Below, piece after piece: positions 13,603 through 58,914 of a stretch of DNA of 60,928 nt. The DNA comes from an uncultured Alphaproteobacteria bacterium (GTDB lineage: Bacteria > Pseudomonadota > Alphaproteobacteria > RF32 > CAG-239), in assembly GCA_944392205.1 (NCBI GenBank), contig CALXVV010000010.1:1-60928 (forward strand), given 5' to 3'. Position numbers and translations under genes: made by a program. The notes under the pieces were generated by a model. That model ran no database searches and was not told where the DNA came from. It worked only from the letters and a program-made list of their open reading frames with translations. Position 1 is the stretch's first letter, and every line of letters begins with the position of its first letter.

Positions 13603-13961
13603 ATATGAGAATTTTATGCAAAAATTGCTTGACGGCGGCAAATAATTCGCTTAAGTTCTAGGTGCTGCGGATGACGGAGGGGCGTTTGCTTTGAAGTTTG
13701 AAGCAGGCAATGTTTTTTGGGGCAAAAGCTCAGTTGGTTAGCTGGAGGAAAAAATATCTGCCCGATGGCAGAGATTTTGACGGAAGGTGCCGCGCAGTTA
13801 GATTGCGACCAAGTGGCAACGCGGGGAGCAATCGTTACGAGCAAACGACAGGAGCGCAGTTAGCGAGGTGGTTTAACCGAGCTTTATGAAGCGACTCAGG
13901 TCTGCTCTTGGAAAGAAATTATTTTGCAGGGTTCTGATGCCTTATGTAGGCAATGTTTTTT
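13603..13961 (+). repeat. Non-coding region with decayed tRNA 5' half and structured element (copy L)
   Basis: No credible gene lies in these 359 bases. Positions 13705-13741 repeat, with 34 of 37 bases identical, the 37 bases that lead into and form the 5' part of the tRNA at 13948-13984 (flank, D-arm start). The copy breaks off after the D-loop. It is followed by a hairpin (CTGCCCGATGGCAG, 13758-13771), GTTAG at 13797, and CGTTAC 36 nt after the start of GTTAG. A reverse-oriented D-arm-like fragment (GGTTTAACCGAGCTTT, 13870-13885) closes the element. The same hairpin - GTTAG - CGTTAC order recurs at 14137-14220 and 58618-58700. Confidence 0.6.
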
Positions 13962-14038
13962 GGGCCCATAGCTCAGTTGGTTAGAGCAGGCCGCTCATAA
14001 CGGTCTGGTCGTTGGTTCGAGTCCATCTGGGCCCACCA
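13962..14038 (+). tRNA. tRNA with CAU anticodon (probably tRNA-Ile2, else elongator tRNA-Met)
   Basis: The 77-nt cloverleaf has a 7-bp acceptor stem (GGGCCCA/TGGGCCC), the D-arm GCTCAGTTGGTTAGAGC, an anticodon stem GGCCG/CGGTC around the loop CTCATAA (anticodon CAT), a T-arm with one T-T mismatch, and an encoded CCA. The CAU anticodon is shared by initiator and elongator Met and by Ile2 (lysidine-modified). It lacks initiator features, and its anticodon-to-T-arm segment resembles the E. coli Ile2 tRNA from memory, so Ile2 is my first choice. It is followed by a terminator and flanked by decayed partial copies of itself. Confidence 0.93.
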
Positions 14039-14040
14039 TA

Positions 14041-14072
14041 AAAAAACTCTCCCTTCAGGGGAGAGCTTTTTT
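14041..14072 (+). terminator. Terminator of the CAU tRNA
   Basis: A 7-bp stem (CTCTCCC/GGGAGAG-type) with a T-run begins directly after the CCA end. A 25-nt part of it (14041-14065) is repeated exactly at 14298-14322. Confidence 0.85.
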
Positions 14073-14297
14073 ATGGTGAATTCATAATAGATCACTCGAA
14101 CCAACGAGGTCGTTGGGCTCGCAGGAACAAAAAATGTCCGGTGGACATTTTTTGCCGAGAGCTATAGCAGTTGTTAGACGGCGACTTGCCGAAAGGCAAC
14201 AAAGACGGCGTTACGACTGGCTTGACCGAAGCGAAGTTATCGAGCGCCAAAGCGCGAAATCTACGTAGCAAGACGAGTCCATCTGGGCCTTTCAGCT
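14073..14297 (+). repeat. Non-coding structured element with decayed tRNA 3' half (copy R)
   Basis: This region has no gene. It starts with a fold-back made from the tRNA T-arm: a reverse copy (ACTCGAACCAACGA, 14094-14107) followed by a direct copy (TCGTTGG). Next come a strong palindrome (AAATGTCCGGTGGACATTT, centred near 14143), GTTAG at 14173, a TTGCC-GAAA-GGCAA mini-hairpin and CGTTAC 36 nt after the start of GTTAG. At 14274-14289 the direct T-arm and acceptor sequence CGAGTCCATCTGGGCC reappears, followed by a second copy of the tRNA terminator. The tRNA 3' half plus terminator is therefore duplicated about 256 bp downstream, with a structured insert between the copies. Confidence 0.6.
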
Positions 14298-14331
14298 AAA
14301 AAACTCTCCCTTCAGGGGAGAGTTTTTTTAT
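14298..14331. terminator. Second copy of the tRNA terminator, now facing the GtrA-like gene
   Basis: The stem-loop duplicates the one at 14041, with A- and T-runs on both sides, so it can act in both directions. It overlaps the stop of the minus-strand GtrA-like gene ending at 14328. Confidence 0.8.
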
Positions 14332-58343: not shown

Positions 58344-58419
58344 GGGCGCTTAGCTCAGCTGGAAGAGCATCTCGTTTACACCGAGAGGGTCGGGAGTTCG
58401 AACCTCTCAGCGCCCACCA
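58344..58419 (+). tRNA. tRNA-Val (TAC)
   Basis: 76-nt cloverleaf: acceptor GGGCGCT/AGCGCCC, D-arm GCTCAGCTGGAAGAGC, anticodon stem TCTCG/CGAGA around TTTACAC (anticodon TAC), T-arm GGGAGTTCGAACCTCTC, and an encoded CCA. A terminator follows 10 nt later. The region downstream carries a structured element with fragments of this tRNA. Confidence 0.96.
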
Positions 58420-58428
58420 ATTGCTAAG

Positions 58429-58460
58429 AAAAAACAACCGTTGCTCCGGTTGTTTTTTTT
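58429..58460 (+). terminator. Terminator of tRNA-Val
   Basis: ACAACCG pairs with CGGTTGT, followed by eight T. Confidence 0.9.
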
Positions 58461-58800
58461 CTGCAAAATCTTTGTAACATCTTATTTGAGCAAGGAAGTG
58501 TAAACGAACCGCAGCGAAATTAGATGCCAAAGCCAAAATCCACCCAATAAGGGTGGTTTTTTTATTGGTATGGGAGTTAGGTTTGAACTCCCGAGGAAGG
58601 GCACTAAAGTGAGGAGCAGGCACCGACGTGCCTGCGAGGCCTTTGTGGTGTAGAATTGTTAGCGCGCTTTCGAGCGACAGCGAACAAAAGCAAGCGTTAC
58701 AAGTCAAACATGAACGACTACCAGGGCTAGGCGAGACGGGAGTATCGCCGGTTTGCCCTTTGAGGCAAAAGCCCGCCTGTGCAACTCAAGCCTGAAAACT
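58461..58800 (+). repeat. Non-coding structured element downstream of tRNA-Val (copy V)
   Basis: There is no credible gene in this stretch. GTGTAAACGA (58499-58508) is the reverse of the tRNA-Val anticodon arm. GGGAGTTAGGTTTGAACTCC (58572-58591) is a fold-back of the T-arm, a direct GGGAGTT followed by its reverse. A strong hairpin (GGCACCGACGTGCC, 58619-58632), TTGTTAG (58657), a CGCT-TTCG-AGCG mini-hairpin, AACAAA and GCGTTAC (37 nt after the start of GTTAG) follow, in the same order and spacing as at 13758-13840 and 14137-14215. A separate terminator-like hairpin (58540-58564) lies inside it. Confidence 0.6.
58536..58564 (+). terminator. Terminator-like hairpin in the tRNA-Val downstream region
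   Basis: CCACCC pairs with GGGTGG around AATAA, followed by seven T. No gene immediately precedes it, so it may terminate read-through from tRNA-Val or mark the end of a small RNA. Confidence 0.75.
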
Positions 58801-58914
58801 CTTATAAAATGATCAATATTTTTAGTTGTATTTAGTGATAAAAAGATTGCTGTTTATAAAATAGTATGTAATATATAACAAGGCTATAAATTATGTGTGG
58901 AGGACAGTATCAAA

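Follow-up and report, generated by a model that had tools for sequence, protein, structure and literature searches.

What are the structured elements that lie beside tRNA genes in a contig of an uncultured alphaproteobacterium of the genus CAG-239 (CALXVV010000010.1 of assembly GCA_944392205.1; the window, 60,928 nucleotides (nt) in length), and are they RNA genes or mobile DNA? A first-pass annotation of the window had described a family of three copies, named L, R and V, in which a GC-rich palindrome precedes the boxes GTTAG and CGTTAC at a conserved spacing, with variable stems and with pieces of the adjoining tRNA, and had suggested either a structured RNA or a hairpin-recognised mobile DNA. 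This is still the right pair of alternatives. The tRNA-adjacent family with conserved boxes and variable stems is also borne out, and its stems covary. Instead of three copies, however, the family comprises at least three related core types, one of which alone occurs in 1–22 copies per positive genome. R and V are likely members, and L a probable one, of a family of small cassettes that encode no protein and gather in the 3' part of tRNA genes.

The three copies are present at positions 13758–13840 (L), 14137–14215 (R) and 58618–58700 (V), with distances of 36, 36 and 37 nt between the starts of the two boxes, a strong palindrome on the 5' side of each, and an adjoining tRNA gene, namely tRNA-Met for L and R and tRNA-Val for V (Table 1). 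Repeat analysis recovered the tRNA pieces as well. The 5' flank of L is a 50-nt copy of the promoter and the 5' part of tRNA-Met, through the GTTAG of the D-arm. R carries an exact reverse complement of the T-arm and repeats, in direct orientation, the 3' end of the tRNA with its terminator; V carries a 16-nt antisense T-arm of tRNA-Val. V is a composite, in which a GTTAG module (class Q) is joined to a core of another type (class S), and it has no copy of the tRNA tail. Pairing next to the boxes is poor in L, whose inner stem and 3' module do fit the class-Q structure.

Class S was revealed by a search of the window's own genome with V, which found this second core type beside tRNA-Arg, Ser, Lys and Val. 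Its units follow a fixed order: an intact tRNA, a terminator, an antisense T-arm, a loop of 3–7 nt, a sense T-arm up to TT(C/T)GA, the core running from CTAC to GAGTA or GAAGTA, and then the tRNA 3' end from (A/G)TCC through CCA, usually followed by a second copy of the terminator. An intrinsic terminator usually lies 5' of the unit, and no excess of promoters was seen at the units. Among 121 class-S copies with neighbourhoods, 82 begin 11–78 nt (median 50) after a tRNA and 25 more within 800 nt, adjoining 20 tRNA isoacceptors. In 100 of 106 copies, no other isoacceptor matches the antisense arm better than the cognate tRNA does.

The distribution of class S is narrow. A covariance model built from five class-S copies (R1, narrow) found it in 31 of 34 genomes of the same genus, often in tandem, and in none of 24 genomes from other genera of the class. 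A broader model built from the genus (R2), run under stricter filters over a sample of 398 genomes of the phylum, matched the window's own genome only, so that about 420 sampled genomes yielded no class-S copy outside the genus. The genus consists of uncultured gut bacteria, and its genomes are metagenome-assembled, with contig ends that fall in repeats. Exact matches to the element pattern among named genomes, a set from which records close to the window's genome may be omitted, include Azospirillum sp. CAG:239. Pattern matches in Myxococcales and Planctomycetota were taken as chance, since they lie away from tRNA genes and do not score significantly with R2.

The cores are under structural constraint. 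In an alignment of 59 diverse class-S copies made by sequence only, the three core helices covary at most positions, and the whole structure scored 0.377 against 0.166 in shuffled controls (0 of 500 reached the observed value) and at most 0.087 in slid controls. The T-arm helix is compensated as well, which is partly a restatement of the match to the tRNA; the right-terminal helix as drawn is poorly supported. Mismatches in the core helices are strand-specific, with G-A against U-C at 177:5 and G-U against A-C at 18:2, and tandem GA/AG pairs in the core give way to full pairs in some copies. The strand that folds is therefore probably the tRNA-sense strand, either as RNA or as single-stranded DNA.

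Class Q, to which the boxes belong, was modelled from 11 sequences of relatives and of other contigs of the genome (R3), none of them from the window, with the alignment made from sequence alone and the structure drawn on it afterwards. Scored over every position of the window, this model placed R first, L second and V third (Table 1), followed by a fourth match with an E value of 1.4. The high score of R is unsurprising because one of the 11 sequences, from genome G031, is its orthologue, and the real test lies in L and V. As model calibration was shortened and rough, the case for V as a member also draws on where it lies and on the antisense arm and class-S core that it carries. The class-Q structure scored 0.447 against 0.169 in shuffled controls (0 of 500) and at most 0.097 in slid ones. 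GTTA(G/A) and (C/T)GTTAC face each other across an internal loop within a covarying helix, whose compensatory changes include AGTTG/CAACT, AGATG/CATCT, ACTTG/CAAGT, GTTTG/CAAAC and GTTTTC/GAAAAC, and a second module, TTGACCGAAGCGNAGTT..CTTACGNAGCNAGA, lies 3' of this boxed helix.

At least seven further class-Q copies occur in the genome, at tRNA-Pro(cgg), Ala, Lys(ttt), Arg(ccg) and three contig ends, and several of them are in the model. The covariance-model search proposed by the first-pass annotation thus yielded what it had anticipated, further copies next to tRNAs with compensatory changes in the genome and its relatives. The box spacing as such fared differently: the 1.38-Mb genome holds four occurrences of GTTAG-N28..36-CGTTAC against 20 of the reversed-pattern control, so the count does not exceed chance, whereas all four occurrences are adjacent to a tRNA. 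Since L, R and V themselves defined the pattern, only the fourth, beside tRNA-Ala (C2:49857), is independent evidence of placement. Downstream of tRNA-Leu(cag) in genome G013 (locus L251), five class-Q copies stand in tandem with a period of about 153 nt. The three contig ends (C39, C19 and C16; loci L002, L003 and L055) share a near-identical class-Q core followed by a further common stretch (GGAGCTCTGACACTCCGCAGG..). This dispersed repeat, at which the assembly breaks, is also multi-copy in G033, G015 and G020, and it was not placed beside a tRNA here.

Comparison between species revealed turnover at single sites. At the orthologous tRNA-Arg(ccg) across the genus, some species have the tRNA and its terminator alone (an empty site), others a class-S unit or its tandem, and still others a third, Q-like core in the opposite orientation or mixed arrays of it with class S; the tRNA tail and a terminator follow every unit. 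Cores of the class-Q type are found in both orientations. Genome G008 has units after two adjacent tRNA genes, tRNA-Pro(tgg) and tRNA-Arg(tct). The two cores agree base for base along most of the sequence, yet the antisense arm, the sense arm and the tail of each unit match its own tRNA. The Pro unit sits within a tRNA operon, where only 29 bases, ATCCAATAGTCCCGACCATATTTGAAAAT, are duplicated. The nearest relative of a core lies beside the same isoacceptor in another genome in 50 cases, beside another tRNA of the same genome in three and differs in both respects in 56, from which it follows that units persist by site and change their tRNA only sometimes.

The first-pass annotation knew of no described element with this pattern, yet the RtT/RttR repeats of Escherichia coli have the same anatomy. 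They too are repeated, or stand in tandem, after a tRNA and end in its 3' end from the T-loop (AATCC..CCA), with GAGTA or similar as the right end of the core at the junction, a stretch complementary to the T-arm or tail, and one core beside two different tRNAs (tyrT and argVYZQ), each with its cognate tail. The tyrT repeat reads GAAGGATGAGAAGCTTCG-ACC-AAGGTTCGA, core, GCTGAGTA and ATCC..CCA. At argVYZQ of strain MG1655 (locus L285), the tRNA-Arg 3' end recurs three times outside the tRNA genes. Each of these copies stands behind an RtT core like that of tyrT, which has GGGAGGAT or a similar stretch in front of it and ends in GGCGAGTA or GTGAGTC; the junction shows GAGT(A/C). In contrast to argVYZQ, glyVXY and leuQPV of E. 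coli have no additional tail copies. Placed side by side, the units of the genome, tyrT and argVYZQ are all post-tRNA repeats that end in the tRNA 3' end from the T-loop.

Differences lie in the cores and in the several core classes, the 20 isoacceptors, the terminators 5' of the units and the mixed arrays of CAG-239. R2 ranked the four tyrT repeats first in a search of 17.7 kb (E 0.0017–0.011, values that would not be significant at genome-wide scale), but it found no argVYZQ repeat; R1 gave no match on E. coli, nor did R3 on tyrT. Rfam scans at gathering and relaxed thresholds returned tRNAs only, plus a sub-threshold match to RtT (RF00391). In the genome, RF00391 has a single match, at the Ser(gga) unit, which at 24.8 bits lies below the gathering threshold of 45 bits and outside the Rfam family. 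Because the tyrT/RttR and argVYZQ repeats share anatomy and junction with the elements, the latter are a new variant of the RtT kind, with a common origin of the cores as a candidate. The literature that we found on RtT offers little beyond secondary mentions: in Actinobacillus, Northern blots are reported to show RtT RNAs close to the tRNAs for Asn and Lys (PMC4986893), rtT of Salmonella is listed with 175-bp copy-number variation (PMC2658671), and one paper relates rtT-like sequences to BIMEs (PMC2965389).

Considering these data together, we lean towards reading the units as cassette-like mobile DNA that lands in the T-loops of tRNA genes. On entry, a mobile unit would link its core to the T-loop of a tRNA 3' end that has been duplicated; the hairpin formed by the antisense and sense T-arms might be used in recognition or might be made from the target; the tRNA would be spared through duplication of its 3' end and the bases following it; and arrays could grow by recombination between tail copies. 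Several results speak against such mobility. Searches for PF00589 and PF01797, which did not extend to IS110-type recombinases, identified no mobilising enzyme, and no circular or excised form was seen. PF00589 proteins number only two each in the window's genome, G015, G020, G031 and G033, all of which bear elements; those of the genome itself and several element-bearing relatives have about 310 residues, a size that suggests XerC and XerD. PF01797, the Y1 transposase, is absent from the window's genome and from 27 of 35 genomes, being present in 8 of the 35 of the genus. Neither a tyrosine recombinase nor a Y1 transposase tracks the distribution of the elements, and we rejected both as the driver. 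Twelve of the 121 class-S copies have no tRNA call upstream, most of them with only a short tRNA tail there, and the rewriting of both arms for a new tRNA lacks an explanation. Finally, RttR, the nearest relative by anatomy, is an RNA, and the G-A mismatches and one-strand G-U pairs suit RNA as well as single-stranded DNA.

The last two points lead to a serious though less probable alternative, in which the units are small-RNA genes like RttR, transcribed by read-through of the tRNA terminator and excised during tRNA maturation, with cores kept for RNA function and an antisense T-arm that folds on or pairs with the tRNA. It would account for the strand-specific covariation on the tRNA-sense strand, and it agrees with the annotation of rttR as a small RNA in E. 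coli, with the Actinobacillus blots and with the sub-threshold RF00391 match. The terminators 5' of the units and the lack of a promoter excess fit it poorly, however, as do class-Q-type cores in both orientations, and the many empty orthologous sites would be odd if the RNA were needed. T-loop junctions and duplicated tRNA 3' ends are also typical of tRNA-targeting integrases, so that larger tyrosine-integrase islands might have entered the T-loops, restored the tRNA and left short ends and tail copies behind. In G008 and G013, gene-bearing stretches of 1–2 kb separate one unit from another or a unit from its tRNA; these, and up to eight PF00589 proteins in other species of the genus, would suit such remnants, but the two Xer-sized proteins of the window's genome, and an arm hairpin and covarying cores that random remnants would not be expected to have, make this origin improbable. 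The stretches themselves lie at L068 754–1386 in G013, between a tRNA and its unit, and at L105 1712–3125 in G008, between two near-identical units; two of their three proteins have weak or small Pfam matches (helix-turn-helix, MORN) and none is a recombinase. Least credible of all is an origin without mobility, through tandem duplication and quasi-palindrome template switching at tRNA ends with gene conversion from the adjoining tRNA. Palindromes and tails near a tRNA favour template switching and unequal crossing-over, close core kinship follows the tRNA type across species and tandem arrays are common, but it is hard to reconcile with one core that accompanies 20 isoacceptors, or with near-identical cores at different tRNAs of one genome.

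The units can be compared with several known mobile systems. They resemble integron cassettes (attC/attI) in forming arrays at a fixed site, in the possible recognition of a folded strand and in that new units might enter beside the anchor, but here the site is a tRNA T-loop, and the small cores mostly encode no protein. The genome, with its two PF00589 proteins, showed no integron integrase, and comparison with the attC box pattern was visual only. The T-loop junction and the duplicated tRNA 3' end are shared with tRNA-targeting integrative elements, from which the units differ by their length of 100–400 nt, usually without genes, by the antisense/sense T-arm hairpin and by the lack of a dedicated integrase in the genome. 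REP/BIME sequences and non-autonomous elements of the IS200/IS605 type are likewise short, non-coding, hairpin-bearing and present in many copies; here, the elements are bound to tRNA 3' ends, and the genome has no Y1 transposase. The target guides of IS110/IS1111 bridge RNAs are split, whereas the antisense arm is contiguous. We also considered group I and II introns, where the antisense arm standing before the sense arm argues against them, and archaeal-type tRNA introns and CRISPR-like arrays, which the order or the parts do not support.

We know of no settled origin for the tyrT repeats of E. coli in the literature searched. With more than 100 comparable copies in several core classes, orthologous sites both empty and filled, and the rule of the cognate antisense T-arm, the genus makes the origin of such repeats testable by comparison and population sequencing. 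If mobile, the units would represent a new route for colonising tRNA genes that spares the tRNA and requires no obvious dedicated integrase. Far more tentatively, and with considerable doubt, one may think of a tRNA-anchored cassette system in the genus and in gamma-proteobacteria (RtT), in which the folded core would carry an antisense T-arm guide, re-templated from each new target tRNA, and protein-less units would insert at the T-loop of any tRNA without harming it, through host or still elusive recombination enzymes.

Table 1. Elements, tRNA genes and tRNA-derived pieces around copies L, R and V in the window.
Feature	Position	Strand	Support
Partial copy of tRNA-Met promoter and 5' part (to D-arm GTTAG), upstream flank of L	13692..13741	+	Repeat analysis, 82% to 13935–13984
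Copy L, class-Q core	13785..13894	+	R3 match 27.1 bits, E 2.7e-4; GTTAG at 13797, CGTTAC at 13833
tRNA-Met(CAT)	13962..14038	+	ARAGORN; RF00005 65.1 bits
Intrinsic terminator of tRNA-Met, first copy	14041..14074	+	
Antisense T-arm of tRNA-Met	14094..14107	+	14/14 reverse complement of 14009–14022
Sense T-stem copy TCGTTGG, pairs with antisense arm	14110..14116	+	Sequence reading and fold
Strong A/T-flanked palindrome 5' of R core	14128..14154	+	Repeat analysis
Copy R, class-Q core	14161..14273	+	R3 match 102.6 bits, E 1.8e-21; orthologues in G033, G031, G015; GTTAG at 14173, CGTTAC at 14209
Second copy of tRNA-Met 3' end from T-loop (tail)	14274..14289	+	Direct repeat
Second copy of tRNA-Met terminator	14298..14331	+	Direct repeat, 97%
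tRNA-Val(TAC)	58344..58419	+	ARAGORN
Related insert: terminator-like palindrome, loop TTGCTC, then TCTGCAAAATCTTTGTAACATCTT..TTAGATGCCAAAG	58426..58535	+	
Second terminator, 5' of copy V	58540..58563	+	
Antisense T-arm of tRNA-Val	58579..58594	+	94% reverse complement of 58390–58405
Palindrome GCAGGCAC-CGAC-GTGCCTGC of V	58616..58635	+	Sequence reading and fold
Copy V, class-Q 5' module	58646..58714	+	R3 match 58646–58736, 16.8 bits, E 0.056, third best in window; GTTAG at 58658, CGTTAC at 58695
Class-S core joined behind V module; right end decayed, tail copy absent	58716..58792	+	R2 match 58691–58804, 43.4 bits, E 4.1e-9

The related insert is Q-like, in forward orientation, and stands directly after tRNA-Val, 5' of the V unit. 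Its motifs recur reversed after tRNA-Arg(ccg), Phe and Met in relatives and in the genome itself, and a palindrome with the same TTGCTC loop is found again in many inserts across the genus. Elsewhere in the genome, on contig C13 downstream of tRNA-Pro(ggg) (locus L042), an open reading frame beginning MKKVVFGFDLGIASIGWAAVK comes after a truncated class-S unit; we take this start to resemble the N-terminus of Cas9.
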